Shown: piece by piece, positions 3,124 to 46,088 of the stretch
Layout of the letters: each line of letters starts with the position of its first letter
Numbering within the stretch: the stretch's first letter is position 1
Assembly (NCBI GenBank): GCA_963965975.1
Contig: OZ014415.1
Coordinates: 7,469,557 to 7,533,556 of the forward strand
From: Xestospongia bergquistia
Lineage: Eukaryota > Porifera > Demospongiae > Haplosclerida > Petrosiidae
DNA length: 64,000 bases
Reading direction: 5' to 3'
Notes under the pieces: generated by a model
The model's database searches: none
Seen by the model: only the letters and a program-made list of their open reading frames with translations
Told to the model about the DNA's origin: nothing
Made by a program: the position numbers and the translations under genes

Positions 3124-4244
3124 ATGGCTGACCCAAACTCTCATAGGTATTATTATTGTATGCAATTCCCTTTATAATATAGTTTTATTGCTTGCTATAC
3201 AGTTCAGAGTACGCTAGACTTTCTGGACGTAATGTTTTATTCGACAAGACAAGTTACAGGAGCGAAATTTTTGTTCGGGTCTTCTGCATTGTAAGCCAGT
3301 TAATATGTATATTATATCAACTGTATATTTTGTATTTTACTGGAAGTATACATGTACATAATATCCAATCTAATTTCTTTGTGTATGATATAAATTAGTA
3401 ATTATTAATCTACCAGGTGGTGGATGAGCCACTAGCTTGTTACTGTCACCTTTGAATCAATTAACTCTTGAGAGTGGACTTGTCTTTCTGATAAAACTAG
3501 GTACTAATCAATATCTTAAAGCAACAGTAGCAGGCTAAGGGAAAGTATAAGGTGTCAGGAAGACAGTAGCAAATTTGCTGAGCTATAAATTACACCCAGC
3601 TTCTAGCATTATTATATAATAATTTTATTCATAGTTAATTTACTAACAAATCTTTTCTTTCTAGTTCTCTTTAGTTGTCACTATTGGAATCTTGGCAGGA
3701 ATTGTTGGTATTAACAACTCCTCAACTGCTCAACAATTACCAACAAATCGAATTCTCAACTGTACAATTGATGCAGATAGTGATATCCAAAATACAACTG
3801 AAGTTGTCAGCTGTACAGCTGATCTCAATATGTTTGGTTTAGGTCGTAATTTCCTCCAAAGGTCTTTGAACATATTTGGAGGTATTTATTTAGGATTACT
3901 TCTACTGGGAATAATATATGAAGTGATTATCATTGCAATACGATTGACCAAAGCTAGTTTCTCCAGTTCAAAATGGTTTTGTAATATGGTGAGTTGAAAT
4001 ATGTTATCAAAGTATCAACTATAGTTGTTGTACATTGAAATAATTTATTTGTTGCTATCAATAAATTGTTAGTTTCAGTATTCTTAGAAATACTGACCAC
4101 TTTGTAAATTAGACTAAAGAAAAACAGAGTAAATGAAACAGGAGTAAATGATCCAGATCACCATAAATGTGTTTAGTGATATAAATACTGTGGGTAGTTA
4201 GTGGTCTAGTTCACCATAAACTTCTAAAGCTTCAATCACACTAT

Positions 4245-8509: not shown

Positions 8510-10385
8510 ATGGCTGACCCCAACTTCCACAGGTATTATTATTGTATGCAATTGCCTTTGTAATGTACATTTATTGCTTGCTATACAGTTCAGAGTACGC
8601 TAGTCTTTCTGGGCGTAATGTTTTATTCGACAAGACAAGTTACAGTAGGGAAATTTTTGTTCGAATCTTCTGCATTGTAAGCCAGTTAATATGTATATTA
8701 TCTCAGCTGTATATTTTATATTACTTTATTGGAACTATATATGTACACAATATCCAATCTAATTTCCTTGTGTATGATATAAATCATTAATTATTAATCT
8801 ACCACCAAATTTTCAGTGGTGGATGACCACTACCTTGTTACTGTCACCTTTGAATCAATTACCTGCTGTAAGTGGCTTCTGATAAAACTAGGTACTAAGC
8901 AATATCTTAAAGCAACAGTGGCAAACTAAACAAAAGTATAAGGTGTCAGGAAGACAGTAGCAAATTTGTTGAGCTATAAATTACACCCAGCTTCTAGCAT
9001 TATTATATAATAATTTTATTCATAGTTAATTTACTAACAAATCTTTTCTTTCTAGTTCTCTTTAGTTGTCACTATTGGAATCTTGGCAGGAATTGTTGGT
9101 ATTAACAACTCCTCAACTGCTCAACAATTACCAACAAATCGAATTCTCAACTGTACAATTGATGCAGATAGTGATATCCAAAATACAACTGAAGTTGTCA
9201 GCTGTACAGCTGATCTCAACACATTTAGTTTAGGTCGTAATTTCCTCCAAAGGTCTTTGAACATATTTGGAGGTATTTATTTAGGATTACTTCTACTGGG
9301 AATAATATATGAAGTGATTATCATTGTGATACGATTGACCAAAGCTAGTTTCTCCAGTTCAAAATGCTTTTGTATTATGGTGAGTTGAAATATGTTATCA
9401 AAGCATTAACTATAGTTGTTGTACATGGAAATAATGTATTGTTGCTAATAATAGATGGTTTGTATCAGCATTCTTACCTGTCTGAGTAACAAGGATTTGA
9501 GATAGAAATATTGACCATTTTGTAAATTAGACTAAAGACAAACAGAGTAAATGAGACAGGAGTAGATGAACCGGATAAAAACACCTACCTGTGCTAAATG
9601 TATAATAGCATTACTGTTTTTTTAATCATCCTTATATAGCTATAGCTAAAACAGCTGATAGTATTCTCACCATATTTGTGTTTAGTGATATAAATACTGT
9701 GGGTAGTAAGTGGTCTAGATCAGCATAAACTTCTAAAGCTTCAATCACACTATTATAATATATATTACAAAAAAACCATAGAGATTAAACAAACATGATA
9801 ATAATAATTTTATTTCTTATTATAGGACTATATTATCAGTACCTTTTTGATGAATGTTTTCGTTGGTGGTGTAGTTGGCAGTTTCCTTCTTGGTTGGTTG
9901 TGGATTATATATGGTGATGTTGTCTCTAATCAAACTGAAGGACGAACAGCAACACTGATAGGAAACATTATCACATTGCTCTTTGTAGATTTTGTAAGTA
10001 TTAAAGCATATGGAAGTTGGGCATGACATAAGCTATGAATTATCTAAAAATCCTAAGAAAGTTGATTGTAACTTTGTGATATTAAATTATCACCTATTAA
10101 TCAAATACTCAATACTCAATACTATAAATTACTAAATTATTAACAAATATTGTTATTACTTTATTACAATACCACATTTCATACAATTATATATGTATAC
10201 CTCCTTCATTACAACCTTGATTGACTATTGTACACATCTTATAGGGATGGTTTGTTTCCAACTATATTCAATTCCATACTATATCTGCTATTATGTTAGC
10301 TGTATCTGTTAAGGAACGTGTAACAAAACAATTATTGGAGCACCCACTAAGTGATTTTGCCAAAAATGAGAACAGCTACACTTAA
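8510..10385 (+). CDS. Unknown four-pass membrane protein, copy 2
   Basis: Same five exons as copy 1: 8510-8532, 8589-8676, 9056-9379, 9826-9993 and 10245-10385 (TAA). Exon lengths are identical (23, 88, 324, 168, 141 nt) and all splice sites and phases are kept. Changes are scattered amino-acid replacements (N-terminus MADPNFHSSEY, Thr for Met in the first loop, Gln for Arg near the C-terminus) with no frame damage. Both copies therefore look functional. Function unknown; four hydrophobic segments and a glycosylatable first loop suggest a plasma- or endomembrane protein. Confidence 0.75.
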
Positions 10386-11849: not shown

Positions 11850-13087
11850 CTTAAAAAACAACACAGTATACTCCAATTGAGTTTACTCAAAGGGATTATC
11901 CTACACCAACAGTTGGTCAACAGGATGTTATAGAATATGCCAGTATTACATAACATTTAACAAATTACTTCACAGGAAGCACTCATCATATCATATCAAT
12001 TATTGTTATTAATTATTATTATATCTTATAACTATTTATACTAGTCATCATAAATAATTACTTCACAGGAAGCACTCATCATATCATATCAATTATTGAT
12101 ATTATAATTATTATTATATCTCTGTTCATTATTGTCATAATCATTAGATATTATTATTGTTGTTGTTGTTGTTGTTTATATTACTATATCAAAACTCCTT
12201 TTACTAGTCAACATCATTTAATTGTCAGATATATGATATCACTTTGAGTGATATAAAAAGGCTTTTTTAATTCATTTTAATTATTTGTAGAAAATTTTTA
12301 GTGTATATTCTTGATATTTTGAACAATGTATTAGCTACTCAAAGTTATATAATATGAATCTTGACAGTAATTGTCTATGTTATCATTAACAAAATAAAAT
12401 TGTTAGTTTTGTAGAGAGGGGGTGGCTAGACTAACAGTTAGTGCATCAAATAATTATAACCCTCACAATAACATGATACTGTTAAGTACAATACTTTTAT
12501 AACAATATTGTGATGTTAGAAAGGTTTAACTTACTTATAATATAAAATAATGTATTTGTTGTCCATTATAATTGATGTTATTTGAACTGAACTTTGGCTA
12601 TCAAGTTATAGTATATGCCAAATATCAATATATATCATTAATATATGTATACTTGTAATTAGACATGGAGTACTAGAGAAGCCTTAAGTACATATACTCT
12701 AAATGTATCAGTGACATATTTATATTATTCAAGTGTCCAATATGTTATAAATTGTTGTTACATCTAATGAACAAAAGTTATTTAAAGTGTTTAACAATTA
12801 ATGGACACCTTTTCTTAACAGTATTTCCTAGCAAGTTTACATTGTTATATCTAGCATGGATAATTTCACAGATTACAATTGAATCATAAAAACTGACACA
12901 ATTCAAGGTTAATGCATATATTTAAATTAAAGTGCTTTAAAGTATTTAAAAGTATTATTTTATATAGTGTTTATGTAAGTACTAATCCTTTGTCAATTAT
13001 GCACCATTTACACATTCCTCATTTTGGTATTCAGTTGATCATCTCACTCAATGAGCAACACATTTTCAATGGTTGCTGTATAGAATT
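11850..13087. other. Intergenic, nothing recognised
   Basis: Very AT-rich with (ATT)n and (GTT)n tracts near 12000-12180 and a direct repeat of TAATTACTTCACAGGAAGCACTCATC. No gene. Confidence 0.6.
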
Positions 13088-13624
13088 AAGATTGTATCAG
13101 AATATAATCACTATCCCATTGAATTTAATTGGGTAGTATTCTATTATACAGGTCATGGTGGAAGTATAGATAAGAAAGGCTATTTCATTTTATCTGATGA
13201 CAATGACAGAGATGAGAATTTTCCCATTGATTCAGAAGTCATTGATAGATTTCAACCTATCAATCCAAATTGTCATCTTGATAATCGTAAACGTTTGTTT
13301 CTCTTTGACTGATACAACTGAAACATTACCCATATCTCCACCTTCATTGGTTGATTGTTACCTACCTTGTTACCAACCATCTAATGATTTCACTATAATT
13401 GCACATGCTACATATTACAGAAGAGTCGCTCATGGTGACTTTTCACATGGAGGTGCATGGACAATTAAATTGTGTGACAATATAAGACAATATGCAGAAA
13501 CTAAGGAAGTGACTGATATTCTTATCAAGACAAGAGATGAAGTAATCAATGAAACAAAATTTAACGTCCAAGGTCCTTTTCATATAGTGAATTGTGAATG
13601 TGGCTATCTTGTTAAACCCAGATG
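13088..13624 (+). pseudogene. Caspase-like domain pseudogene (3' part)
   Basis: Duplicate of the caspase-like exon at 22687-23447, beginning abruptly at IVSEYNHYP. The His motif (YYTGHGG) is present, but 14 bp are missing after the LFLFD codons. That removes both cysteine codons of the expected active-site CC pair and shifts the frame, giving an immediate stop at 13310-13312. The sequence after the break stays open in another frame to 13624. The N-terminal third of the domain and the membrane part are absent. Broken copy at the edge of a segmental duplication. Confidence 0.88.
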
Positions 13625-18770: not shown

Positions 18771-19378
18771 TTACCAGTGATCTTCCCATCCATTTTTATC
18801 AATAGCTTCGCAAATTGCCTCAACATCATAAATACTCGGCTTCGATGATATTAGTCCTGTCACATCCACTTTAATAATTGGTTGTGGAGCCGGTTCTGGC
18901 GAACAAAAATCTCTATACCAGTTAGGTGTATCTTCGAGTTGTATTTGTAGCAAAATACCATAAGCAACCTGTAAAGAAATGTCTACTTAGTATGTATGAA
19001 GTTTCATTTACTAACGTTATGTTTTGATTTTGTTTGGATTGCATCGAGTAACGTTTCATACGTAGTATCAGCAGAAAAGTTAGCAGCAGCAGGTTTATAA
19101 GCAAGAGAAAATGTAAGTACAATCCTTAATGGATCAAGAGGACCAGGAGTGTCTCGAATGCTCCATGTATCAGGAAGATTGGCTCTTTCTTCATAAATTC
19201 GTTCAACGATAGATCGATCACCTGTTACTACGTGAAAAGAATCTCCTCTTTCAGACTGTACACTCTTAACTTGAATGCTTTCTTTTTTAACGTTTATCCT
19301 TTTTTCAATCTCTTCAGCTACGTCAGATGTACAGTCTCCGTCTATAATAAGTTGTCGTCGATGACAACGAGCCTCCAT
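18771..19378 (-). CDS. Family S small two-domain protein S1
   Basis: Exon 1 is 19378-19016 (121 codons) and exon 2 is 18968-18771 (TAA); the intron is 47 nt in phase 0. The 186-residue product has no signal or membrane segment. The N-terminal domain (about residues 8-85) runs QLIIDGD, DVAEEIEKRINVKKESIQVKSV, SFHVVTGDRSIVERIYEERANLPDTW: strand-helix-strand-strand-helix in appearance, which could be an RRM-like fold (inference only). The C-terminal exon encodes VAYGILLQIQLED..NWYRDF, then QPIIKVDVTGLISS and ICEAIDKNGWEDHW. Four other copies in this window share both domains and the intron position. It lies head-to-head with R3, about 1.5 kb away. Function unknown. Confidence 0.78.
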
Positions 19379-20847
19379 TCTTCTTCTTTCTATGTCAGCT
19401 TAAGGAATTGCAAACGATGCATCATAAATCACGAGATGTAGTTAATAACTTTATCAAATAAACTTTATGTAAACGTAGCTATATATAATATAAGCCTTAG
19501 TTAAAGTTATGTTTGTCTACCATATATGTCACGAATCGTGCAATTTCATCAGTAATATCTATTAATTCATCTCACTTTCAATAAGATTTCATGCAATTTT
19601 AATTTATCTCACTTTCAATAAGACTTCATGCAATCTTTATAAAAAAAGTTATCTGTGTGTCTTAAGCTAGACCGAATGAAGACTCTTTATGACTTTGGTT
19701 GATTTAAAACTTCAATGTATTTCCATATATCAGTTGTAAAACACAATATGCCAATAGAATATTTAGTATTTTATTACATAGAAAGGTCTACAGTGCATTG
19801 TAAATCCTACACTCTGAATAAAGTATGGATGTGTTTGAATTGAGTGCCAACTTATGTAATCATAATCATTTGTGATCATGCAGATTAATTACATTAAAAC
19901 TTCAAATCTAATTAATATAGACTCTTCTACTATAAGTGGAGTCACATTAAGCAGTACACTTGTCAAGTGTTTCAAAAAATATTGTAATTTTCATAGTCTT
20001 CAGTCTTAGCATTGTATATACTGGCATGATGTGTGTGTTCAATATTATGAAATCAAAATTATTCATATACTTGACACATTATGTGCACAAATGACTTCGA
20101 AATTTAACAGACCAGCAGTGCACTTCAAAATTGCTTTTGTATAACTATGAATAAATTTATTAACTAACATATAGGTTACCAATATTACACAAACAAGAAT
20201 AACAAACTGTAAAATGATTTTAAGAATATTTTGATTGTATACTATTGTAATCATTAATTTTTTCCTTTCATGTTTTGTATAGTCACTGTAAGTTTATTAC
20301 TTAATCCAAATTTTTATCTATATCACATTACTTTATCTTATTTTGTAACTAACTTGTCACTCGTAAGCCATTGGTGGCTGGGCAGTCTTTTGTGTGTGAC
20401 ATAAATAATAATAATAATAATTATTATTATTATTATTATTATTTATGTTCACCAATTGAAATGTGTATTATATAGTAATTTGTTGTGATTGGTCTTGTTT
20501 GCTTAACAACTTGAAACCTTTTCTTTACAATCACATTGTTTCCTGCTGTGATTAAGTCAAACCATATAACTGTATCACAGTCGTCAATAAAGGCCCTTCT
20601 AGATGCTCCTATAAAGTGATTGGTATCATCAATTTAATGTCTGAATGTACATGCATGTATTTACAAACTTCTTAATTATCAATCTTTTATAAATGAATCT
20701 TTTGTTGATGTTAAAAAGTGTTTAAATTTATTTCACATGAAAAATCTTTTTAAATTTTGCCATATATGGAAGTAGTACAGAAAATTAGTTTAGCTGACAC
20801 AGATTATTATTTATTCATAATTACACATCTCTGTCACATATGAAAAG
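19379..20847. other. Divergent intergenic region S1/R3
   Basis: Holds the probable promoters of S1 and R3. A (ATA)n-(ATT)n inverted microsatellite lies at 20404-20443 and could form a long hairpin. A direct repeat of TTTCAATAAGA.TTCATGCAAT occurs at 19575-19635. No gene. Confidence 0.5.
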
Positions 20848-23447
20848 ATGATGAAATCTTGCAAGAAGAGAGGTGCATGTACGTTTTTCTATGTACTGTC
20901 TGTACATTTTTACTTTTATGACTTCTTACAGATTGGCTGAGATGTGGTACTATAACAACAGCAAGTATTGCAATTGTAGCTACGTTATTTTGTGTAATTG
21001 CTCTACCGTTGCTGTTGACAAAACCTGTACACACCAGCAATCCAGCACAACAAGGCCCTGATCTCATTAAACTTGATTCATCAACTTTTTCTGTCATTAT
21101 TTCACTTATAGAGCCTCAAAAAGCACAGATAAGTGCTCTTTTAACTTTTAATAAACCAATGGAGTATAGTTATTTAATTCGTGAGAGGCCAAAGCCTTCA
21201 CTCCGTGGACCATCTCGCTATATATACAATTACCATAATGCTGATAATTCTATTTACTTGTTTGCTGGTTCAAAACTGATATATAAAATATTTGTAACAG
21301 GTACAACTACTTCGTCATGTCCAGCACAACTTTTTCTTTTCAAAAACTGGCAATTTTATGACAATTTTAAGAATGGACACTTGTTAAATTCGTTCAATAA
21401 ATCTTTATGTTTGCATCCTGACCAAAGTAACCAAACCATCACTTTTGAAATTACTATATCAGCATCTTATTATGTTGGTATATACATTGCTTCCAACACC
21501 TCTGTCATTGGTTACATCTCAGTGGAACATGTATTCTACAATACAACTGAATTCGATCCAAAAAATTATTGTAGCGAGCAACTTTCTGTTAACAATCCAA
21601 ATTGCAAGTTGACAATTTGCAATGTAGCTCCTGCCTGTAGTAACCAATATTATTTGCTAGTAAATTCCACCAGTAACATTACATACAGTATTGTGGAGGA
21701 ACGTCTTTTTTCCAATAACACAGGACAAATTGCCACTTTAACTGTTCTTTTATTTTCTCTACTACCCTTAATTTCTTTGTTGTTGTTTTTTATCAGCTGT
21801 GTGATAAAGAAAAGATATTTCACATCAGGTATAATATTAATACATATATAACTTTCATGCATAGAGACATGTTTAAAGTATATCTATAGTAATAATTATT
21901 ATTGTTTCTACTCATGATGCATGGAGTCAATCAATTTACACTTGTTAAAATATAGATGGAAGAGGCAAAGTCAAACATTATTCGAAATCATCGTCTGTAA
22001 CACCAGCAGCATCATTTAGTATTATTTTGCTAAAACTTAGACTAATGTCAGTGAATCATACTATATAGAGTGATGAGTTTAGGGTCTAGGGTTTGGATGA
22101 ACAGTTCTGTGCAAATAACAATTTAGGAAAATGTTAGCTGAAGTTTTCAGTTGAAACAATACTAGCCATTGCTAGCATTGTTAATGAAAGTAGTTAAATG
22201 TATTAATGGGAGCTACTTAATTTTGTTTCTCTGTTTTCAATTCTGCCATTTGTTACTATACAGGTAATTTACCCCCGGCTGATACTACTGAGATGCAATA
22301 TGACAGTAAGTGTTTAGTATTGAATATGGCAATGTTTGTTCCTTTATCATCTACATAGAATTCATTTTACAGGCCACATAGTTTCTTATTTTAAAATGTA
22401 TTAATTTGTCATTTTTGGTTCCTCTATACTCTGTTATACATTTGAGATGATGATATAGACTGCTTACATTCCGTCATAGGTCTCAAGCTGTTGATAATCT
22501 AAAAAACAACATGATTATTGTAAACAAATATGTAATATGTTACAGTATATGAGCATATCAGCTTCTCTTCATTCATTATCTTTGGCACTTTAAGCCAAAG
22601 TTTTTATTTAAAACCTAGGCCAATTTCTTATGTGCATGCATATGATATTTATCTAAAATGATAAGTATTATGCCTCTTTTTTGTAGAATTATATAAAGAG
22701 TTCACTGAAGATGTGATGGCAAAAGTAAAAGAAGATAAAATTGGTCTTGCTGTCATATTTGGTGTAGTAAATAAGAAGGGACCTCAAGGAGCTGATTTAG
22801 ATGTTGAAAATGTCAAAACAACTTTTTATAACATCAACTATGCTACATGGATTATTAAAAACCCAACGTGTACAATAATGAGAAATGCAGTGAAGATTGT
22901 ATCAGAATATAATCACTACCCCATTGAATTTAATTGGGTAGTATTCTATTATACAGGTCATGGTGGAAGTATAGATAAGAAAGGCTATTTCATTTTATCT
23001 GATGACAATGACAGAAATGAGAATTTTCCCATTGATTCAGAAGTCATTGATAGATTTCAACCTATCAATCCAAATTGTCATCTTGATAATCGTAAACGTT
23101 TGTTTCTCTTTGACTGTTGTTTAAAAGAAGATACAACTGAAACATTACCTATATCTCCACCTCCATTGGTTGATCATAACCTACCTTGTTACCAACCACC
23201 TTACGATTTCACTATAATTGCACATGCTACATATTACAGAGAAGTTGCTTCTGGTCACTTTGCGTATGGAGGTGTATGGACAAGTAAACTGTGCAACAAT
23301 ATAAAACAACATGCAGAAGATATGACAGTGAATGACATTCTGATCAAGACAAGAACTGAAGTAGTTAGTGAGACAAAATTTAAAGCACAAACTCCCTTTC
23401 AAATAGTGAATTGTGCAGATGACTGCTTACTTATTCAACCCAGGTGA
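20848..23447 (+). CDS. Family R receptor-like protein fused to a caspase/paracaspase-like domain (R3)
   Basis: Exons 20848-20872, 20932-21828, 22264-22305 and 22687-23447. All three introns are GT-AG and phase 1, and the frame stays open across every junction, giving 574 residues. Order: 8-residue start, membrane segment (IAIVATLFCVIALPLLL), family R ectodomain (LRGPSRYIYNYHNADNSIYLF, CPAQLFLF, SASYYVGIYI, NPNCKLTICN), second membrane segment near 275-295, a 14-residue linker exon (GNLPPADTTEMQYD), then a caspase-fold domain from about residue 322. That domain has VIFGVVN, VVFYYTGHGG with the candidate catalytic His at about 413, and KRLFLFDCC with Cys at about 465/466, the layout of clan CD peptidases; GHGG...FDCC recalls para/metacaspases more than caspases. 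No long prodomain. The final codons (CCC AGG TGA) overlap a good GTGAGG donor, so another 3' exon is possible. Confidence 0.82.
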
Positions 23448-23880
23448 GGTGTTACATATATTATATATATGTGTGTGTATATAATTATATACATAAATGT
23501 GTCAATATCTATTTAACTATATAATATGACATAAAGATGTAATTACAACAATAGTGTTTAAATAATGACACTGCATTTACAGTATAAATTAACATGCACT
23601 TCAGGCTTTTCTATTATACATGAAACATAATGTTTATGCATGTACCTGTGGTTTTCTCTTTCTATATAGAGAAAAAATCACAGCAGAAGATGAGGGCCAT
23701 CTTTGTGCAGAGGGGGGGGTGGTCAGCTGACCATAGCTGAGAAAACAACAAGACTCTCTAGAATATTTTTTTCTATTGACCAAACTGTACATGTTCTCTT
23801 GATCTTTGTAATTGTGCAAATATTATTGCATACGTATTTATCACCAATACTAATTATCATACAATAAAATCTGTTTAAAA

Positions 23881-23941
23881 GAAAGAGAGTGAAAGAGAGA
23901 GAGAGAGACAGGATAGAGAGACAGAGACAGAGAGACAAAGG
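23881..23941. repeat. (AG)n purine microsatellite
   Basis: Nearly pure A/G over about 60 nt, mostly AG units. Shorter at the paralogous site 14388-14411. Confidence 0.9.
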
Positions 23942-24414
23942 AATGGTCACATACACACTAAAACTCACATACAATATACCATATCTGGTAAATCTTTAGA
24001 GAACATTTGGTACATGTTTATTGCTTTTGTTGCTTGAGGCTACACTGACAAATCAATTTTTGTAACTTAGCATGTATGACAACAACATACTATAAACATA
24101 CAAATATACATAGTTATATAGTAAATCCATGATTCAAAACAATTGTATAATCATTTAGCATGCTGCACATGCCAGGTGGAAAAATTGTTGTCGAAATGGA
24201 GTAAGAATAGCACATGACACAGTTCATCTTATTTTCATTGTTGTTGAATGACTTAAACTACTTTGCTAAAGAAGATTTGATACTTTATATTGACTTCTTT
24301 TATAATTGACAATAACAATACAATATTTGTTAGCAACAACAAACAATATGAATACAATTCTCTCCAGTGAAGGATTCTCTATGCAGAGCAATAAATGGCA
24401 TCGGTGTAGGAACA

Positions 24415-24436
24415 GGGGTGAGGGGTGGGGTGGGGG
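24415..24436 (+). other. G-quadruplex motif
   Basis: Four G runs of 4, 4, 4 and 5 separated by TGA, T and T, exceptional in this AT-rich sequence. It lies about 190 bp upstream of the R4 start codon and is absent upstream of R1. Confidence 0.8.
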
Positions 24437-24629
24437 CCACAAGGTGCACGTGCCCTACTAGCAAGCTAAAGTAGATCTGGTCCCACGATTTATGTCCCAT
24501 ATAAGGAATGTGGCGCAGGTGTTGGTATGCAATTAGAGGTAGTGTGAAATTATGAATATCATTAAGTTGAAGGTGAACATTGCAATTTAATGATAGCCGA
24601 GTCATCAAAATAAAGGAGTGCAAAACACA

Positions 24630-26019
24630 ATGGCCTCCAAGTGTATGTATTAATTTGTATTTGTATTGCAATATTTTCTTTGTTTGTGTAGCCCATATAT
24701 TCAGTCGATCTACAGAAGCTGTAAAAGATCCTACTCCCATTGAAACTGATGACAGTACTAGTGATTCAGGTACAACAATTAATATAACTAGCTTATTATG
24801 TTTTATACATTTTAAAAGATGAGCATACACATTTGTTAATAGCTAGTAGCTGGCGGTCATCATTAAGCCTTTTAAAGGGACTATCACCACACATAAATAA
24901 TTCATCAAATGCACGCAGAAGTGAACAGGATGATATCAACAGTAATTCCTTAACTGTTAGTGAACTTGGTAACAGACAAAAATCAAGTAAATATTTACAC
25001 TACAAATGTTGTTATTTACTTATTATTATTACATATTAATAGAGAAAAAGATTCTCTCAAAATGTGTTGTCGCATTTCTGATGATAAGTATTATTTTGAT
25101 ATTTGTCATTGTTGGTGGTACAATATTAATGGTAAAGTCAGTGTTAACATCACAACAGAATAGTAATTCTATGGAGATTGGAGATGATAATTTGCCTGTT
25201 TCAGTTTTATTACCTTTGTCTCCTTATGTATATTCAGTCACAATAATGCTACTAAATCCTGGCTATGAGTCAGCTGTTCTTTATATAAGTCGAATAAAAC
25301 CTTCCAAGATGACAAATTATCTATCAAAAGTTACAATACCTAAACTTTCTGGACGTTCTCGCTATAATTACAACTATTATGGTGCTGATCAGCCTATTTA
25401 CTTGATTTCTAACTCAAGATTGTTATATGATCTTATCATATCAGCTGATACTGTTTCTAAATGTTATGCTAGGCTCTACCTATTCAGTGATGACACTAAC
25501 TATAACAACTTCAAGAACTATCAAGTTTTTAAATCACCGAAGGCATATATTTCATCTTGTTTTCAAGTCAATAAATTAAACACTGAAACTAAGATAATGT
25601 GGGCCTTTAACATCACTGAACCTTCTCTTTATTATGTTGGTGTAGAAATTGATGCTGGAGTCACTGTTACTAGTAACATATCAGTACTTCGTATGTCCTA
25701 TAACACAACTGGGTTGTCTACCCCTAATGAGTGTAGTGAGCCTCTGTCATCAGTTAATCCATCTTGTACATTGATTTTGTGTAGTAGTAATTTCATCTGC
25801 AGCAAACTAATGTCATGTATCTTAGTGAAACCTACTGGTATTGTTAAGATAACATATACTTCTGTAAGCGCTCATATTCATGGACAAAGTGGTGTCCTTG
25901 GATTTTCCTTTTCTCTAGTCATGTTTTTTATAGCTCTTTTAGCATTTGTAACCTTGATTTTTTTGTCTTTACATTACAGATCAGTAATAGTTTCTCATTT
26001 GTGTTTATGTAGATATTAA
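24630..26019 (+). CDS. Family R two-pass membrane protein R4
   Basis: Exons 24630-24642, 24692-24769, 24819-24986 and 25043-26019, the same lengths as in R1, all junctions phase 1, 411 residues. The large membrane/ectodomain exon differs from R1 by a single residue (Asn for Ser in TSQQNSNS). The 5' exons differ more (HIFSRSTEA against LIFSRPTEA). The acceptor of exon 3 has mutated from TTGTAG to a weak TTAAAAG three bases downstream; using it keeps the frame and drops one Glu. So R4 is probably functional if that acceptor works. Confidence 0.8.
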
Positions 26020-26714
26020 ACCAATTGAGAGATAATTTATACCTTATTGTTATAACTATGTCAATAATGTAGTGATATTTTTAATGATTTATTATATAAT
26101 TAATTATATAAAAGAGTGAAATAGTGAGAATAATTGTGCTTGGTTGTAAATAAAATTCATAATTTACACAAGACCGCGTATCAGTATTCACAGTATTACA
26201 CTAGGGTATTTTGAAATTTGCATTGTTGGATTGTTATAATAATAATATCATTATAAATACACCTTCCTATACCACTGATACTTTATGTACTGAATATGTA
26301 TATGTGGCCACAAATACACTAATAGGGTGAACGCATCACAGTTTGTCATAAAAGATGTGTATATTTAATATAACAATGACTTCAAAGTCAAATAGCATCT
26401 TATAATTAAAGTCACATGATGTATATATATATATACACACTGGGGAAATCGATTGTGCAATGATGAACTATCAAGTACCTATATTCATAGCATATAGTCT
26501 ATGTCACATGCAAGAACAACTATTCTCTGTCAGCTAAATCTTGAGTGCATGACTTCAGCTATACAAACAAACTCTCACTAAAATGACTATATATAGATGG
26601 TATATGTTTATTTTATCATTGCTGATGTGAATCCATGAATTCAAATATTTGACATTATATATGTGTTTATTGCAAGCTACATATTTTCACTGAAAAAATA
26701 TTTTAATAAGCAAA
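26020..26714. other. Spacer after R4
   Basis: Copy of 16650-17371 with a shortened AT repeat at 26421-26434. No gene. Confidence 0.65.
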
Positions 26715-27055
26715 ACGAGTTCCTATGGTATTATTAAACAAAGAGGTAAAATCAAGATAAACTGTACTATTGTGTCATATTATATTCTTTATAAACAGAT
26801 GGCAAGAATATAAGCAATGTCATAATTACGTTAATAGTAATATCCAGGAGCTGTATTGGCATACCACTTGTTTTTACTCATTATCATTCTAAGTCAATAC
26901 AGCCAAATACAACACAACTCATTGGTGATGATTTCATTAATAGTGATGACAATGCATTCTTTATTAGTGATGATATATCTCTTTCATCTATAGTCATATC
27001 ATTACCTGATCCACGAACTGCAAATGTTTCCTTATTATGTGATATTAATTATTGA
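26715..27055 (+). pseudogene. Truncated R2-like pseudogene
   Basis: Copy of the R2 start: the first-exon ATG is ACG at 26715-26717. Exon 2 (from about 26800) has a deletion in the membrane segment, then matches R2 closely (the stretch encoding GIPLVFTHYHSKS and the next about 45 codons) to about 27020, where the duplication ends and a stop follows. No signature motif remains. Confidence 0.88.
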
Positions 27056-27934
27056 TAAAGATTATTATCAAGATTAAACTTGGAAATTTAGCAAAACAGC
27101 AGTGCTTTTTTAAATTGCTTTGTGTATGACTATGAATTTGATAATATTGCATGATGTAATGTTTTGGCATGATCATTAATAACTACATACATTCTTGTTT
27201 AGAGTGACATGTTATCTTGTGTCTTGGATAAATTTATGATTAAAATTGATTTACATATATGACTTTAGAGTGCAAGATCATTTGCAAGATTATTTGCAGG
27301 TTTGCTGGTTGTATCTATGTATATGTATTCTAGAATCTCGATTTAATACATATAGTGGTCGCCTACTTTTCATACTTTAACAAAATGTCAGTGACTATAC
27401 CAACTGCAAATTAATCACATCATTAAAGTATGGGGAGACTATACTAATTATTATATAACTCTACATTGTGTGCTCAAGCATTTGAGGTTCCTAGAACAGT
27501 TTATATCAATTAAGTTCTTACAAAAATATGCTCATTTTGAAATTTTGACAAAGTAGTAGGTATATACGCAATCCACAATATAATAATACTATCAGGTTAT
27601 TGTTAAACAGCAATGAGGATGCCAAGGAAAAGAATGTTATGAAATGTATTATTCTTATATGAATATTATTATAATATGAACATTAATTCTATAATATCTT
27701 AAAATTAAGATCGGTCCGTAATCTGTTGATGCGCGATCGGTGTTTTATACATACCAGCACAAGTGGTGAGTATATTGTATGTAAGCTCGATTTCTGTATT
27801 AACTGATACGATTCCCAAAGCCGTAAACTCTAAAGCATTTGAGCAAGCTGTAGATTCGTAGTTTATCAAGGTCCGTCCAATATTGTCCAGCCCAAGCAGT
27901 TAATCTAATTAGAAGCTTCCCCGCTTGACCTCCC
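27056..27934. other. Intergenic, upstream of S2
   Basis: No gene. Non-repetitive and AT-rich except for a GC-richer 27710-27930 with two GATCGGT words (27710 and 27737), likely the S2 promoter region (inference). Confidence 0.5.
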
Positions 27935-28524
27935 ATGGACCAAATTGTTATACATGGAACGACAAAAGAAACAAGTGAAACAGATGTCGCTCATGAGATC
28001 TCTGATAGGATGAAAATCTCTAAAGAACAAATAAAAGTCGAGAGAGTTGAACTGACATGTGGGTGTTGGTTTCACAAAATAACAGCTGATCGTGATATTG
28101 TTCAAACAATCTATGAAAGGAAAGATCGCCTTCCAAGAAGATGGCACCCTCGTTATTGTACCAGTTATAACAAGAAGGATGCTAAATTAGTGATATCACT
28201 TGCATATGCAAAAAGTTCAGAAAATAATGCTCTCAGCAACTTTCTAACTACAATTACTCAAGTTGGTAACCAGTACAAGGTAGAAAATTCTGATTCTACT
28301 AACAAAAATCAAAAAGTATTTTTCTATTAAAGGTCAATTATGATGTTCAAGTAATAGTTGATAAAGAAGCAGACTGCAACTATTATGTCTCATCTGATAA
28401 AGAGCCGAAACCAATCATTAAAGTTGATATCAGAGGAAACCATGATGACCTAGTTTACCCAAATCCTGATACAGTTGGAAAAATATGTGATGCAGTGAAT
28501 ACATATTGGAGAGACTACTGGTAA
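27935..28524 (+). CDS. Family S small two-domain protein S2
   Basis: Exon 1 is 27935-28279 (115 codons) and exon 2 is 28333-28524 (TAA); the intron is 53 nt in phase 0. The 178-residue product shows the N-terminal domain as QIVIHGT, DVAHEISDRMKISKEQIKVERV, WFHKITADRDIVQTIYERKDRLPRRW, and the C-terminal exon as VNYDVQVIVD..CNYYVSSD, KPIIKVDIRGN and ICDAVNTYWRDYW. It is cytosolic by appearance. Unlike the other S genes it is on the plus strand, so it lies in tandem, not divergent, with the R genes around it. Function unknown. Confidence 0.78.
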
Positions 28525-30036: not shown

Positions 30037-31904
30037 ATGGCTGGTGAAAAACACGAAGAGTCGGGTACGTTTCGCCTTTTAACATTAATAGAGTATTAAT
30101 AGAGTATGAAGAGGGTCCTATGATTCATTATTCCTGTGTATATCCTTAAAAAAGTAGATTAAACTAATAGAATTAAATCATAGTGTATTAGATGTATATA
30201 TTCTGTATTAAATTTGTGATTGACTCGTTTATGTGATTAATTTCTTCGTAGACTTAACAGAGCTCATTCAAAAGAAACCACATATTAAAGAGCAATGGTC
30301 AAGGGAATGCGATGATGAACTGTTTCTAGAACTAAGTAAGCAGATACCAAACTCTGGTTTAACACTTGCACTTAGTCTTGGATTAACAAATGCTGATGCA
30401 GAACAAATCAAACGAGACAAACATGATGAAAAAGATAGGATAATTGCAACTTTAATAAAATGGAGAGAAAAAAATGGCAGTGATGCTACCTACCAGGTAT
30501 TGATAGAAATCTTCAGTACACATGAAAATCGTAAATTGGCTGAGTTTGTAATAAATTATCTTGATGAAAATGTACCAAGAAAGCAAACATCAGGTAGATA
30601 CAATAAGTACATTATTAAAAGCTAATGAGGTACTACAACAATATTGTCCATGGTATAGCCTGTGTACTATAATTTTCTTCTAGTTTAGAGCATACTTATA
30701 GTTTTTGCTTTGTCATTGTTTATACTATCATATATTTCCTTATATGGTATTAATTTATGTTTTGATATTGCATCATCTTGCTTAGCTTGCTTTTTTGCTA
30801 CTATATAAGTAGTTGGTTCTGCTGTTGCTTTTCAGTGTATTGGCTTTTAACTAATGAAGTCTTTGTAATAAATAACAAATATGTCTACAAACAGCACAAT
30901 TATCATATCTTTCTCTCAATATAGGGACCATCAAACCATTAGTGTTCACAATTTTCGGCCTAGTTATTGCAATAATCCTTATAACCAGTGGATGTGTGGC
31001 TTTGGGATTAGCAGTGTCACCAACAAACACAACTAAACATGATCATATTGGGCAAGATCCTTTTAACAGTCCTTCATTAATAAAACTCAACTCGTCTATT
31101 TCTTTTCTCACTATACATCTAATTGAACCAACTTCTCATATCAGAGCAATGGTTTACATTGATTCCACAACACCCAGTATGAATAGTGTTTATCTACAGT
31201 CATCACCATCGCCTACTCTAACTTGTTCAGGATCTCAACTTGCTCAACCATCTCGTTGCAACTACAACTACAACGGTGCTGACATTCCCATCTATCTACT
31301 TGCTGACTTTAAGTTGATATACAAGTTGTCCATCAGAAATAATAATATGAACATAAACACAACTCCTACAAAACTTCTTCTTTTTAATAATTGGTCACAG
31401 TACCGCAATTACTTTGCATATAAATCTTATAATCCGTGTAACACATCAAAACCCCTTCAAGTTGGCAATGGAACAGCAATAAATTCAACATGGACATTCA
31501 ATATTACTGAGCCATCTTTCTATTATGTTGCTTTAGAAGTAGCATATAATGTCACAGTAACAAGTTATAATGTATCAGTTGCTGGTCAGTTGTACAACAT
31601 ATCAGGATTAGAAAGCCCTTGCAGCAAGCCACTGTCTGAAGAAAATCCACATTGTGAAGTTTTTTTATGCAATAAATTTTATTGTAATCAACATGATATG
31701 TACTTGCTGATTGACTCTAATAGTAATGTTAGTGTGACATATCACTTTATTAGTAGTAAAATTGATGGTAAGGCAGATTTACTTTGTTTTATTTTTGGTT
31801 TATTGCTACTGCTGACATTTGTATATTGTTTATGCTGGCCTTTTGTTTATTGCCTCTGGTGGCCTTTTGTTTCTGCTGCTTTCTGTTGCAAAGGACAGTT
31901 ATGA
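30037..31904 (+). CDS. Death-domain family R membrane protein (R5)
   Basis: Exons 30037-30064, 30252-30593 and 30925-31904; introns GT-AG, both phase 1; 449 residues. Residues about 12-115 form a Death domain: LTELIQKK, ELSKQIP..GLTLALSLGLTNADAEQI, then IATLIKWREKNGSDATYQVL and LAEFVINYL, with the usual Trp in helix 5. A membrane segment follows at about 127-150 (FTIFGLVIAIILITSGCVA), then the family R ectodomain (QPSRCNYNYNGADIPIYLL, EPSFYYVALEV, NISGLESPCSKPLS, NPHCEVFLCNKFYC) and a second membrane segment (LCFIFGLLLLLTFVYCLCW). If the N-terminus is cytosolic, the Death domain faces the cytosol, as expected for recruiting Death-domain adaptors. The Arg-to-Cys change in the signature (SRCNYNY) is unusual. 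Confidence 0.83.
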
Positions 31905-34735: not shown

Positions 34736-36618
34736 TCATATGATACCATCCTCCGATGGTAACTGAATGGGTACTCTTGAGGCCCACATACCGGCATTGC
34801 CTCGCCATAAAGTGATGGACAGCCGTTGGAACAAATGGGAGATGGAGTGAGAGGGGGGCAAACCGAGACGATCGGCTTGAAGCTTTCCAACTTCTTTAAT
34901 TACATTAGCAGCTTCCCTGCTCCAGCCCCCAAATGACTCAACCACCAATGGGATGAAGGAGATTCCAGCTTGATGGCAATCGTTATCATGCAAGCGACGT
35001 TTACACTCCTCTGCCACAGAAATAGCATAACCTTGAGCGACAGCAGCATTATTGATGGTAAGTTGCTGGACAGGCGAGACTACAGTAACATCAAGAGCAG
35101 CAGAACGACCACGTTTCCAACAATGGAGAAAAACATCAGCAGGGCGACTACTGGAACATGGAACAAGGGAGGGGACTTCTTTCTTAGGGGCCAAGGCAGC
35201 AGACTGTGCAGCAGAAAAAATGACATCACGCAGGCTATCATGCCGACGAATCATGTCCCCATTACCTTTACAGGTAACAAGGTGATCACCCATACTGTCA
35301 GCCTCTGTGTCACAAACTAGACAAGAGGAACCTTCCTTGACCATCTGCAAGCCAAGCCAATACCTTAGGCAGGAACGAAACTCCCAATCTACCAGGTGTA
35401 GGCCAAGAGCAGAACAAGGTACAACATTCAACCAGTCACCTACATGGCAGATAGAGGAAGACAAAGCAAGAGCCCTGGAGCGAATATCTGGGGCCTCCTG
35501 AAGGAAAGATTCAAATCTGGCTTGGTCAATTATTCTACTGAGATGGCGCTGACGAACTGGAACATCTATATCCTCAATGGAAGACCAATCGGAATGATCT
35601 ACAGCTGATGTCAGAAGGAGCAGTGCATCATTGGTATGAGGAGGAGGGGGTGGACTTCGATCCAAGATCTCAGCAACAAGATGGGCAGATTTCGATACAG
35701 AACTGATGAATGCAGCTGAGGCATGAGAGGTTGCCAAACGAAAACCCAGTCTGCCAAATGAGACTGGAAGAGTTGCTTTTTTCCAAGCCCAATCTGGCAG
35801 TGGAGCACCAACAATCTCAGAGACAGAATCATGCAAAGCTCTGTCAAGATTCTGAATAGCATCCTCAATGAAGGAGGGGGGACATGTGCGCAAGATAAAA
35901 ACAAACTTGGGGAGAGACAAACAAGAGCGTAACAAGACATATTCCATCTGTGAATCATCCAACTCAGGCAGTAGGTCTAGTGCACTTTGAATCTTTTCTA
36001 CTCTCTTGCAGGCCTGTGAGGAACAGAATGTAGTTGAACCAACTGGGGCACCCAAAAGCACAAAACCATCTCAAGCAATTGGAATATCAGAGAGGAGAAG
36101 GTTCTCAGACAAATCAGCATCTGCAGGAAAAAAAAAACAAAGATTTAACTCGGTTGAGTTGGAGACCTCTCGCAGGACCATCTTCTTCAATGATGCGTAA
36201 GGCCTTTAACAGATCCTCACTAGAGCCACAAAGAGTTCCATCATCTAGATACCAGGCATTCATCTGTAGGCCAGGCACCTCCTCTGCTATTCTCTCAACA
36301 ATGGGGTGAAGGGCCAGAGCAAAGCAGAAGGGACCCAAAGGGTCACCTTGCTTTACACCACAACAACTCTTTACGGTACGCTTACCAAGGTGAAGAATGG
36401 GCTGAGAGCCATAACAGCACTCTGTCCATGCAGCCATAGAAGGAATACGAGCTCGTACTTCTTCAAACATACAATGACGATCAATTGAATTGAAGGTATT
36501 ACAAAAATCAATTTGCAAGACCCTTTTACGCCTTAAAGGAATGGTATCATCACCTAAAATAGTGTTAACCAAATGAACAATAGCTTCACAACCAACTGGA
36601 ACTCCAACACCAACTTGC
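34736..36618 (-). mobile_element. Defective non-LTR-like retroelement (reverse transcriptase plus endonuclease-like domain)
   Basis: Minus strand. The 5' part (about 36618-36114) encodes reverse transcriptase: VLQIDFCNTFNSIDR, GVKQGDPLGPFCFALALHPIV and the catalytic YLDD. After a T10 run (36127-36136 on plus) the frame shifts, and a TGA lies about 20 codons on. The remaining 441 codons (36061-34736) continue with LLGAPVG, SLPVSFGRLGFR-like, a Cys/His cluster (CLVCDTEADSMGDHLVTCKG) and RPADVFLHCWKRGRSAALDVTV, which looks like a PD-(D/E)xK restriction-like endonuclease. The N-terminus is truncated, no LTRs are seen, and no clear poly-A tail was found. It is inserted in or beside an R gene. Confidence 0.8.
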
Positions 36619-36622
36619 AAAT

Positions 36623-37024
36623 TTATACTATGTTGCCATTGAGATAGACACTGGAACAAATGTAACTAGTTATGTGTCAGTAATTCGTGTGTACTACAAC
36701 ATTACAGGACTTAAAGAGACCCAGTGAATGTCCTGAGTACCTGTCCGCTGATCATCCATCCTGCCTAATCACATTGTGTAGCTTCTTTTGTTATAGAGGT
36801 GACAAATATTTGTTAGTTAATTCTTACGGCAGTGTTGAAGTGTTCTATTCTTTCTCTACTCCTAAAATATATGGGTCGGCAAAGATGGCTGGCTTTTCAT
36901 TGGTTTACTGTTCGTTGTTGCTGCCATTATTATTGTAATGACTCTGTCTATACTTGCTTACAAAAATAAAAGATTAATACGATGTTGTAAGCACATTTTT
37001 AACTGTCAATCAAGAACAGATTAA
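36623..37024 (+). pseudogene. 3' half of a family R gene cut by the retroelement
   Basis: Starts at LYYVAIEIDTG right at the edge of the reverse-transcriptase element and continues VSVIRVYYNITGLK. A one-base insertion at about 36715 shifts frame through RPSECPEYLSADHPSCLITLCSFFC. A second shift near 36893 is needed to read the membrane segment (IGLLFVVAAIIIVMTLSILA) and tail to the TAA at 37022. Two frameshifts plus loss of the 5' half make it a pseudogene. Confidence 0.87.
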
Positions 37025-37319: not shown

Positions 37320-38257
37320 TTACTGATACTTGCTGAAAGATGACTTAACCACAGCAGATATTTTTTCCAAATCTTGTTGACTTGGACAGACATCAGGATG
37401 TTTTTGTATACTCATTTCCATGAGTGGTTTGAAAACTTTATTTGTACGATCATAATAGGTACGAAGACCATCCCCCACATTAACAGACAATAAAATGTCA
37501 TAGTTAAAATTGACCTGAATACAATTATAAAGTATATATTTTACAATTCCATTATAAATAGTATTATTGTAACATGACCTTTTGTACAAACTTGTTTTTA
37601 CATATACTATAATTGTATTCATTAACTTAATAATTCAAAAATATGATCATAAGTGACTGCTGTTCATATTCCAAATAAGGATATTGTTCCTCGATGCTGA
37701 AGTTAGTAAATTGTACTTATTAAATACATTTTCCATTTAGATTTCAAATATAGCTAGTCTTGTAGCTAATTTATTAATAGTGATTTTATTTAAAACCAGT
37801 GACATATATAATCTAGAGCAAAGCAAGACTTCTTGTTACATCTTTCTATATAAAAGATACACTATTGCCTTACAGGTTCTTGAGTATTTGTTAGAGATGC
37901 GAAGAATTTTTTCAATCCATCCTCATCAATTGGTGATGGTGGGGCTGGAGATACTGAGACATCCGGCCAGAAGGTCAATGTTAATGATAGGGCATTTGTC
38001 TCTTGATCTTGTAGGCTTATTACTGGATGTAAAGTCCAATGACGAGGTAGAGAATGCTTTCTTTCATGAAGCTGATGAATAATATCTTGGTCAGCAATTA
38101 TTTCATGAAACCATTCTTTGCCACGAATTATCTTTCTAACTTGAATGTTTTCTTTTTTTATCCTAAGCCTACTTGTAATTGCATGCTCCACATCTAAGTC
38201 ACTTGCCCCTCTTTTAGTTCCAGAGATATAAATTTTTCCTGACTCACTAACAGCCAT
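37320..38257 (-). CDS. Family S small two-domain protein S3
   Basis: Exon 1 is 38257-37874 (128 codons) and exon 2 is 37514-37320; the intron is 359 nt, phase 0, with GTAAGG donor and TTCAG acceptor. The 192-residue product's N-terminal domain is the clearest of the family: IYISGTKR, DLDVEHAITSRLRIKKENIQVRKI, WFHEIIADQDIIHQLHERKHSLPRHW. The C-terminal exon (VNFNYDILLSVNVGD, TYYDRTN, EMSIQKHPDVC) is diverged and lacks the IKVDIRG motif and the final YW. Head-to-head with R6, starts 650 bp apart. Confidence 0.76.
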
Positions 38258-38906
38258 TATATTGTTTTGTCAAGGAAGTCTAAAAAACAATCGGTCATAT
38301 GATCTAATTAGATATTCATTACACACTATGAATCCTTGTACTATCAAGAAAGTATAGCTACCATGTCGATAATTACTGTCAGGCTTATCATCAATAAAAT
38401 ATAATTCATTATTATCAACACTTGATATTCTTGAGTAGACCCTAGCATTATTATTATATATTGTGAGTAAAACAAAATATCAGGGGATCTAATAATGAAA
38501 ACCCACTATTACTCCTGTAAACATAATAACAGCAGATTATTCCAATTATTATGATATTTTAACTTAATATTGTTAAACTAACTATTATAATTATTATTAT
38601 AAGCATTGTTTTATAACAATATAAATTGATCAGGCTCATCCAACCAATTGGTTTACAATTTACAAGTCTATAAAATGTTTTTTGTTTATATAATGATGAT
38701 GTGTCCTACTGTCTAGAAATCTAACAGTTATTTGAGTACACAATATAACAAAATGAAGCAGTAGTGATACAGCGAATATTGTACATATCTGTACATATAC
38801 TTCAAAAGTCAAATATTATTCATACTCCTCATGTGATTGTGTCATGAATTCTCGTTAATGTGCACTGTCATGTCAAATTAGCAACTTTAGTAACTTCAAA
38901 TACATT
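38258..38906. promoter_or_regulatory. Divergent intergenic region S3/R6
   Basis: 649 bp between the start codons of S3 (minus) and R6 (plus); probably holds both promoters. No motif is certain. Part of it (38330-38460) recurs after R6 (40490-40600) and after R8 (50090-50210). Confidence 0.4.
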
Positions 38907-41401: not shown

Positions 41402-44400
41402 CTAGTGAGCAATGGTAGGTGCATAATGATCAGGAGCATTTCTATCTCTTCTTGGATAACGTGGTTCAGGTGGTCCTGGTCCACTTTCAACAAGTTCCAA
41501 ATCTTGTCCAAAAATATCTGGTGCAGAATAATCATTAGAATTCCCTGTAGTTCTGTCAGAACTCTCTACAGTTTCAGTAGTACCAGAAGAGAACCTAGTC
41601 CCTGGTGTACATAGTTTAAGTCTATCAAAGTGAACTACTTGTAACTTTTTCTTTCTTTGAACATTTCTAATTTTGTAGTCACTTTCGGAAATTTGTTCCA
41701 CAATTTTAAATGGGCCAGTCCATGGGTGATGAAGTTGTTTAGACTGCCCTCGAAGAACAACTGGTGAATGTAACCAGACAAGATCACCTTCCTTGAATGG
41801 CTTTCCATGAATACGCCTGTCATAACATTCTTTTTGACGTTTGTGGGACGTACGTAATTTCTCTCTAGCTATACGATAGGCTTCGTCTAAACTCATCTTG
41901 AGTTGTGTAGCATAGTCACTTGGAACTCCAGTTCCATACATCAAATCAATAGGGAGTCTAGCTTGACGTCCAAACATGAGATAAAATGGTGTATATCCAG
42001 TTGATGCATGTACACTTGTATTATAGGCCATACAAACTTTGCGAATTTGATTTTCCCAATTAAATGGATGATCTTTTGTGGTTGTTGATAACATACTCAA
42101 CAAGGTGCGGTTGAACCTTTCTACAAGTCCATCACACTGTGGGTAATAAGCTGAAGTTCTGGTTTTCTTAATTTTTAAGATGTCACAAATTTCTTTCATT
42201 AGAGTCGATTCAAACTGTCGACCCTGATCTGAATGTAACTGTTCAGGGGGTGAGAATCTACAGAACATCTCATCCACTAACTTCTTAGCAATTGTTGTTG
42301 TTTCTTGATTAGGTATTGCATATGCCTCCATCCATTTAGTGAAATAGTCACCGGCAACCAAGATGTATGAATTTCCTGCTTCACTTTCTGGTAGTGGTCC
42401 TAGAGTATCAACAGCAACAATTTGCATTGGATAACCAGTTTTTATTGTCTGCAACGGAGCATGATTTTTCTTAGGAGCAGATTTCCTAATAGCACATACT
42501 TTACAGGTCTTGCACCAATTATGGATGTCTTGTTGCATGCCAGGCCAGTAAAACCTTTCCTTAAGTTTGTGTAATGACTTCTCTTCTCCTAGATGACCTT
42601 CGAGTGCTCCTGCATGTATTTCTTCTAGGACCTCTTCTCTAAGAGTATGTGGAACAACTAACTGTAACCAGGTAGAGGTTATATGTGTATCTTCATATCT
42701 CCGTTTAAGAACACCATCTTCTACCAGCAGTCTACTCCATAGCTGTAATAAACGTTGTGCTTCTGGTCCTTCTTGTCTAACATCATCAGATCTTGGTTTC
42801 TCATTCTTTTCAAGTGACTATAGAATCAAACTAATTGGACCATCACCAAGCTGCATCTGACGTAAATTTTGTGATGATTTTTCTGTTAATACCATGATAG
42901 TATTCTCTTTCTCTACATCTACAACTTGTGATGATGAGTCAGTATGGCTTTCTCTTCCACACTGTGTACATGGCCCTCTAGACAATTCGTCTGCATTTTG
43001 GTGTTTTCGTCCAGGGCGATGAGAGATTGTAAAATCATACTCCTGTAATCTTTCCATCCACCAAGCCAACTGACCTTCTGGCTCTTTAAAGTTCCGTAGC
43101 CATGTTAAGGATCCATGGTCAGTACGAAGACAAAACTTCCTTCCCAGGAGATATGTTCTGAAGTGTCGAGTAAAAAACACTACAGCTAACAACTCCTTTC
43201 TTGTCACACAATAGCGACGTTCAGGTCTGGTCAGCACACGACTGGCATAAGCAATAACTCGTTCACTTCCATCCTCCTGTAGCTGTGATAATACTGCACC
43301 GATCCCAATATCGCTGGCATCTGTATCCAGAACAAATGTTAGTGAAAAATCTGGAAACACTAAAATTGGGGCAGTAACAAGTCTTTGTCGAAGCTCTTCA
43401 AAAGCTCTTTGACAATCATCTGTCCATTCAAATTTTGATGTCTTCTCTGTGAGACGATGTAGAGGTTTACTTATGCTAGCAAAGTCCTTCACAAACCTTC
43501 TGTAATAATTTGCTAGCCCTAAAAACTGTTGCACTTCTCTCTTTGAGGAGGGTTGTGGCCATTGTGCCACCTTTTCAGTCTTTTCTGGATCTGTCTGCAC
43601 TCCTTCGGCAGATACTATATGACCCAAAAACTTGACTTGCTCCACGCAGAGATCACATTTGTTAGGCTTCAATTTGAGACCAGCTTCTTTAAGATGTTTG
43701 AAAACCTCTCTGAGATTCATTAGATGATCTTCAAATGTTTTTCCAATGACAATTATATCATCGAGATAAACAAGACAACTTGACCATTGTAGACAAGCTA
43801 AAACCATGTCCATTAATCTCTGGAATGTAGCTGGAGCATTGCACAAACCAAAGGGCATCACATTAAACTCAAACAACCCTTCAGTCGTACAAAATGCAGT
43901 CTTCTCTCGATGTTCTGGACTCATTTCCACTTGCCAGTATCCACTTATCAGGTCTAATGTACTGAACCACTTTGAACCGGCTAAGGTATCCAGAGTGTCA
44001 TCTACTCTGGGTAGAGGATAGGCATCTTTTCTTGTGACAGCATTTACTTTTCGATAGTCAACACAAAATCGTGTAGTCCCATCTTTCTTTTGAACAAGTA
44101 CTACTGGAGAAGCCCAGGGACTATTGGATGTCTTAATGACATTTTTGTCTAGCATTTCTCTTAGCAATTCCTTTGCTTGGCATTTACGAAAAGGTGGGAT
44201 CCTGCGAACAGGTTGACGAATTGGTGGAGACTCTCCCGTATCAATTCTATGCTTGATCTTGCCTGTCCTCCCAAAATCATTAGGTCCTTCAGCAAACATG
44301 TCATGGTATTCAAGGAGTAGTGCAAAAAGTTGATCTTGTTGTTGTAAGTTTAGCCTGTCACCTGACCTATTGACAATTTTCCATAGGTTATCACATTGAG

Positions 44401-45213
44401 CATCGGTAACTCTGGAAATTTCCCTTACTTTCTTGTTAACTGTTGTAACTGAATCAACTGGCAGGAGTTCCATCCTTGCTATTGTTGTGCCTTTAGAAAT
44501 ATTTACAACTTCATCTCGTGGGTTTAGTAGTCGTAGAGGAACTTGTGCACCTTGAGGCTGGACAACAGCTCTGGCAACCATAGCTGCATTACGTACTTTC
44601 TTTTCACCTTCTACGATCCAGGTTTTGTGGGCAGACCATTTTGGGATTGTTCCCATGATCTCCATCTCACTATATGGAGGTATCTCCAGATCATTATTTA
44701 GAACAACGTCAACAGGTATGTCTTGTGTTGAGTTAGACTGCTTGCTTTTAATTGAGACAACCTTTCCATGTTGTTTAAAGTATAAAAGATCTTTTGTCGG
44801 GGTCATTTCAATTGTACACTTGTGTGCTTTCAGAAAGTCTCGTCCTAAGATGATATCAGTAGCAAGAAAATCAGCCACAATGACATCAGATGAGAACTTT
44901 TCACTGCACAGTTCAATGTCGATATGTGTGGTACTATTTAGTTGAAGTGGGGTCCCTTGTACTCCCACTAACTTTTTTCCAGTGGCACTTATCAGTTCCT
45001 CTCCAGGAGACCTTATTTTCTCCCATACGCCGCTCGAGACAATAGTTGCCGCTGCGCCGGTATCGATTAAAATGTTAACCGGATATCCGTTGACACGCCC
45101 TTCAACAACGTAATCTGACTCTGAATCTACAGAAAAGGTAGGAATGTTAGTTTGACTTACATGAGCCTTTTGTTCACCCTCGCCTGCCCGGCTCACAGCA
45201 CCGAGGGTTTCTA
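41402..45213 (-). CDS. pol: Gypsy pol polyprotein (protease, RT, RNase H, integrase) with one in-frame stop
   Basis: One frame runs from the gag stop to 41402, interrupted only by TAG at 42820-42818. In order: aspartic protease with LIDTGAAATIVS; reverse transcriptase with the MPFGLCNAPATFQ and YLDD motifs; RNase H (DTDASDIGIGAVLSQ); then, after the stop, the integrase zinc finger (HAGALEGHLG and CKTCKVC), a catalytic core with VAVDTLGPL, HSDQGRQFES and YYPQCDGLVERFNR, and a GPFKIVEQI-type C-terminus. No chromodomain is seen. The stop sits between RNase H and integrase; a CAG-to-TAG mutation is likely, though readthrough cannot be excluded. Pol is entered from gag by a -1 shift (45220-45214). 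Confidence 0.93.
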
Positions 45214-46029: not shown

Positions 46030-46065
46030 CTTGTGTCTTTTCTTTGATTCTTGTTGCTTCTCGAA

Positions 46066-46088
46066 ACGATCCTGCTCACTGCGCCAAT
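46066..46088 (-). other. Gypsy primer-binding site
   Basis: Just inside the 5' LTR the minus strand reads ATTGGCGCAGTGAGCAGG. TGG complements a tRNA 3' CCA; the tRNA itself was not identified. Confidence 0.7.

Follow-up and report, generated by a model that had tools for sequence, protein, structure and literature searches.

The four exons at 20848-23447 on the forward strand of a 64,000-nt stretch of Xestospongia bergquistia DNA (the window; C5:7469557-7533556 of a 146-Mb, 21-contig genome) probably form one gene that encodes a membrane receptor carrying its own caspase-fold protease, made by exon shuffling and activated by ligand-driven dimerisation. That the locus is a gene-level chimera of a known protease fold and an orphan receptor, here called R, is well supported. 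Welding a receptor and a caspase in one gene would show how a death-receptor circuit can be shortened, and the case would be of high interest if a single transcript and dimer-gated activity both hold true. The likely parental genes are still present in the genome and the joint was mapped to a 262-bp stretch of intron, giving a testable pairing of an orphan sponge receptor family with a divergent caspase branch. If active, the product would be a ready-made membrane protease switch. Among the papers that the literature searches listed, judged by title and opening of the abstract, none described a membrane-anchored caspase gene or such a receptor-caspase arrangement; the phrase 'membrane-anchored caspase' occurs in PMC12026882.

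Gene structure and the receptor half

Splicing the DNA on paper joined the four exons in frame into a 574-aa product, with three GT-AG introns of 59, 435 and 381 nt, all in phase 1. The original prediction had likewise given four in-frame, phase-1 exons. Exon 1 (20848..20872, 25 nt) supplies the start codon, a basic tail (MMKSCKKR) predicted to be cytosolic, and a phase-1 donor. It is followed by exon 2 (20932..21828, 897 nt), which encodes the R part, by a linker exon 3 (22264..22305, 42 nt, phase 1-1), and by exon 4 (22687..23447), which encodes the caspase-fold domain and ends with the stop codon TGA at 23445-23447. The splice boundaries, read by eye, have counterparts in paralogues; the R paralogue L036 has a short phase-1 first exon comparable to exon 1 and the same donor after exon 2. 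A good donor (CAG/GTGAGG, intron beginning at 23444) also overlaps the TGA at 23445; if it were used, a possible fifth exon at 23670..23727, indicated by inspection of the sequence alone, would add about 19 residues.

Two strong transmembrane (TM) segments were predicted in the product, at residues 19-37 (20961-21017) and 278-296 (21738-21794), in agreement with the two-pass R protein that had been described earlier. The structure model of exon 2 shows a jelly-roll ectodomain between two helices (pLDDT 80.5, pTM 0.62), for which structural matches were generic only. When the two large exons were scanned with Pfam, Peptidase_C14 was the sole match; the R exon matched no family, TNFR included. 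The N-terminus is short and basic, SCVIKKR follows directly after the second TM segment, and all seven N-glycosylation sequons lie between the TM segments, with none among the 268 C-terminal residues. These features suggest that R is extracellular and both tails are inside, which would place the protease in the cytosol.

The R exon is homologous to the R receptor family of this genome, for which 21 matches were found including the fused gene itself, all on C5, the nearest other one at 64%. A named relative in the sponge Amphimedon queenslandica is P0055 (37% like L037). Together with the classical QACRG caspases and the many Death-domain matches of the genome, this relative fits an animal genome, most likely that of a demosponge. 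The exon 2 donor seems to be kept among R relatives, judging from the (S/T)G-I read-through expected from it, which was present in eight of nine protein tails, of which the DNA was mostly unseen and two of the eight are loci of this genome. The ninth tail, that of P0055, lacks it.

The protease half and its active site

Exon 4 matches Peptidase_C14 with an E-value of 1.3e-20 (74.6 bits against a cut-off of 21.4), and profile and fold both assign it to the caspase fold of family C14. The motifs YYTGHGG and LFDCC, on which the original prediction was based, are therefore part of a genuine domain and not a chance resemblance. His413 (codon 22959-22961, within YYTGHGG) and Cys466 (the second Cys of LFDCC, codon 23118-23120) align with the catalytic His and Cys of caspase-3 and caspase-7. 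Animal caspases rank first by profile and also by fold. Within the branch of caspase domains to which exon 4 belongs, the His is kept in 31 of 33 aligned members and the Cys of the catalytic column in 32 of 33.

Classical caspases have the motif QACxG around the catalytic Cys. The fused gene has DCCLK instead, with the active-site Asp-Cys-Cys encoded at 23112..23120, Asp464 at the Gln position and Cys466 at the catalytic position; Asp occupies the Gln position in all 33 aligned members of the branch. Of the 99 Peptidase_C14 matches in the genome, the best eight all have QACRG and, as read by eye, all three classical S1 residues. These residues (Arg, Gln, Arg; PMC4357240) give caspases their Asp specificity. 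By alignment the fused domain has Pro, Asp and Gly at these positions, where the first and third hinge on the alignment of divergent loops; the Pro is found in 30 of 33 branch members, with three gaps, and the Gly in 27 of 33. Because the residues for Asp specificity are replaced, the name caspase should not imply cleavage after Asp. The protease probably cuts elsewhere than after Asp, possibly following a basic residue.

One of the replacements is shared with the paracaspase MALT1, for which the same paper gives an acidic S1 trio of Asp, Asp and Glu. The clear likeness is the Asp where caspases have Gln; the fused domain has no Glu at the third position, and its profile and fold matches put animal caspases first (MALT1: PMC4357240, PMC4626109). 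Helix 1 also begins with an Asp, a position at which caspase-7 has an aligned Asp too. The layout of MALT1, with Death and Ig domains before the protease, was not found: Pfam gave nothing for the R exon, and the fused gene showed no Death domain. The earlier label 'caspase/paracaspase-like' holds for the fold, which is nearest to animal caspases, and for the His/Cys pair, and needs correction for the S1 residues, of which one is Asp as in MALT1. Elsewhere in the genome, the locus at C11:6459207, one of many arrayed caspase-domain frames on C11, appeared by eye to be without the usual His-Gly and QACxG strings; it also holds a CAP-Gly match and precedes a GTPase-like frame.

Origin of the fusion and constraint on both halves

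Comparison of window positions 19000-28000 with near relatives at the DNA level divided the gene clearly in two. The segment 20946-21957, comprising exon 2 and 129 bp of intron, matches L036 (C5:6822143) at 75%. Starting at 22220, the match is instead to the caspase gene L010 (C4:7237790), at 69-78%, and takes in the linker exon, part of intron 3, the caspase exon and the 3' flank. Since homology breaks at 21957 and 22220, the joint lies in the 262 bp between them (21958..22219), inside the phase-1 intron 2 (21829..22263), which a DNA search found only once in the genome. Read by eye, L010 has in succession a Death-domain exon, a short exon ending in phase 1, a 42-nt linker exon (phase 1-1) that is the counterpart of exon 3, and a caspase exon. 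In L036, the exons beyond the shared donor after the second TM segment give a Death-domain score slightly over the Pfam cut-off. The fused gene showed no detectable Death domain of the cytosolic kind typical of death receptors. The simplest history would be exon shuffling between two phase-1 introns, one after the R exon of an R-Death-type receptor gene and one before the linker exon of a caspase gene, by which the Death domain of the receptor was replaced with the caspase linker and protease. An L010-like gene is taken as the caspase parent because a match that spans the linker and intron 3 was unique to L010.

Both halves have diverged from their relatives to a similar extent (dS 0.36-0.40). 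The caspase part had dN/dS values of 0.46 and 0.51, and R had 0.65. All 95% bootstrap ranges lay under 1; a value of 1 was reached in 3 of 1000 bootstraps for R and in none of 1000 for each of the caspase comparisons. For the unfused pair L010 and L011, dN/dS was 0.45. Neutral change over half that synonymous distance would almost always be expected to introduce stops, and the gene looks functional by these measures. A broken second copy of the caspase exon, at 13085..13622 (+), lacks the 5' part and changes frame close to the active site; it belongs to a tandem duplication within the cluster that has a spacing of 9.3-9.8 kb. It is 99% identical to exon 4 over 224 bp and 83% over the next 295 bp, a patchiness that suggests gene conversion. 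The broken copy indicates that caspase sequence has been in the cluster long enough to be copied and to diverge.

In the mechanism that we propose, the four exons would be spliced into one transcript, and two protease domains would meet when R binds ligand or is clustered. These would activate by dimerisation without an adaptor, like caspase-8 domains forced together, and the gene may have a role in immunity or cell death. The earlier suggestion that a membrane-anchored caspase bypasses the adaptor gains weight from the Death domains in the nearest R paralogue and in L010 and the lack of a detectable one in the fused gene. A more specific scenario, which we put forward tentatively and consider possible rather than probable, is a natural one-chain death receptor: a Death-domain receptor and a Death-domain caspase would have been fused at matching introns, each losing its Death domain. 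The product would be a ligand-gated membrane protease, possibly one that cuts after basic residues and not after Asp. By Rosetta-stone reasoning, unfused R-Death receptors would then normally signal to this branch of Death-domain caspases.

Several observations weigh against these interpretations. The caspase exon taken alone is as close to L011 (C4:2857744) as to L010, with 82% DNA identity over 22736-23482 and a dS of 0.36 versus 0.40, and the tree ties neither half to one relative, placing the caspase exon with neither gene. L011 has a 30-nt linker exon and upstream frames that are Roc-COR GTPase-like (COR-A E-value 3.8e-4, below the Pfam cut-off), so a Death domain may have been absent from the caspase parent. 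The Death match of L036 exceeds the cut-off by little, and the genome is rich in Death domains, with at least 150 matches (150 scored of 983 candidates); hence those of the two parents were not necessarily partners. For 30 R-type and 29 caspase-type proteins in public data, compared by the listed length of their contigs, the only length common to both types was the window's own 987,789 bases, so the fusion was seen nowhere else. A search for fused proteins returned only one R-type protein (7,998 candidates scored). The fusion may be limited to this lineage, or other cases may just be unsampled. Furthermore, an in-frame ATG in exon 3 would allow the caspase part a transcript of its own. Separately, the locus at C4:2857744 (L011/L062) has a caspase exon of the fused gene's branch behind Roc-COR-like frames; the caspase exon of this branch appears to have been shuffled more than once.

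Alternative explanations, known systems and the surrounding cluster

The ATG in exon 3 belongs to an alternative that we consider unlikely but serious, namely that the locus makes two transcripts: an R transcript ending in intron 2 or using other 3' exons, and a caspase-only transcript that starts at an ATG in exon 3 or 4 from its own promoter. An in-frame stop about 20 nt past the exon 2 donor and the exon 3 ATG would allow this, and public gene calls give R and caspase as separate frames, though these callers ignore introns. It is opposed by the apparent conservation of the exon 2 donor, by the 42-nt linker of L010, which reads as an internal exon, and by the finding of no R-type Death exon downstream of the R part. 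Somewhat less likely still is a c-FLIP-like regulator without protease output, which would tether or block other caspases at the membrane. In its favour, the S1 residues are unlike those of caspases, and the His or the Cys of the catalytic column is missing from a few relatives; against it, the fused gene keeps both His413 and Cys466, and its caspase dN/dS is close to that between L010 and L011. This fast-changing, recombining receptor cluster, with its tandem duplication and broken caspase copy, could also have produced a decaying, functionless chimera by accident; with both halves open, dN/dS below 1 and GT-AG splice sites intact, we regard this as improbable. An assembly error joining two genes is very improbable. 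No demonstrably independent assembly of the locus was seen, but the window has no run of N, and both halves (P0002, P0052) occur on the 987,789-base contig, which is shorter than C5 and possibly not independent. Leaving aside the adjacent broken copy, nothing found in the genome is more than 69% identical to the caspase exon, so the exon is no known copy put in the wrong place.

Death receptors rely on Death-domain adaptors to activate caspases. The favoured receptor-protease gene resembles the FAS/TNFR1-FADD-caspase-8 system (PMC5489816) in having a membrane receptor, a proximity-activated caspase and Death domains in its likely parental genes; it differs in joining receptor and protease in a single chain, in showing no Death domain and in having no TNFR match in R. 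The inducible caspase-8 and caspase-9 suicide switches described in the same paper place a protease domain under a dimerising module, but are man-made and respond to a synthetic ligand, whereas here a natural gene has a membrane receptor. One caspase-8 version has no prodomain, and forcing it to dimerise caused more cell death than with full-length caspase-8 (PMC5489816). For a receptor with a domain of this kind, clustering by ligand would be enough. Sponge and bivalve immune-protein expansions with shuffled domains offer a further likeness, as Amphimedon proteins that combine Death-like and TRADD-N domains have a caspase among their C-terminal domains, and C. virginica has an ectodomain-TM-DED-TRADD-N series (PMC8195603). 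For the membrane series, section 10 of that paper names no caspase C-terminal domain; the two large exons of the fused gene match only Peptidase_C14 in Pfam.

The window holds further frames of note. At 30224-30622 (+), a clear Death domain (Pfam E-value 2.1e-9) lies just upstream of an R frame at 30876, and some R genes may accordingly have a Death domain on the N-terminal side. A family of small proteins (frames of 131-174 aa) occurs in the R clusters, at 19007-19399 (-), 27929-28327 (+), 37865-38269 (-) and 51219-51740 (-); it has no significant Pfam match and seven genome matches at an E-value of 1e-3, all on C5. A member lies upstream of both the fused gene and L036, divergent and head to head. 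Near-identical 110-aa frames with hydrophobic stretches are present at 3665-3994 and 9056-9385 (+), and the one scanned had no Pfam match. At 36117-36665 (-) there is a reverse-transcriptase fragment (RVT_1 E-value 6.8e-13) of one mobile element, next to an unmatched frame at 34739-36070. Another element, at 41405-46119 (-), consists of retrotransposon frames that match protease, reverse transcriptase, RNase H and integrase, and from this domain order we take it to be Gypsy-like.
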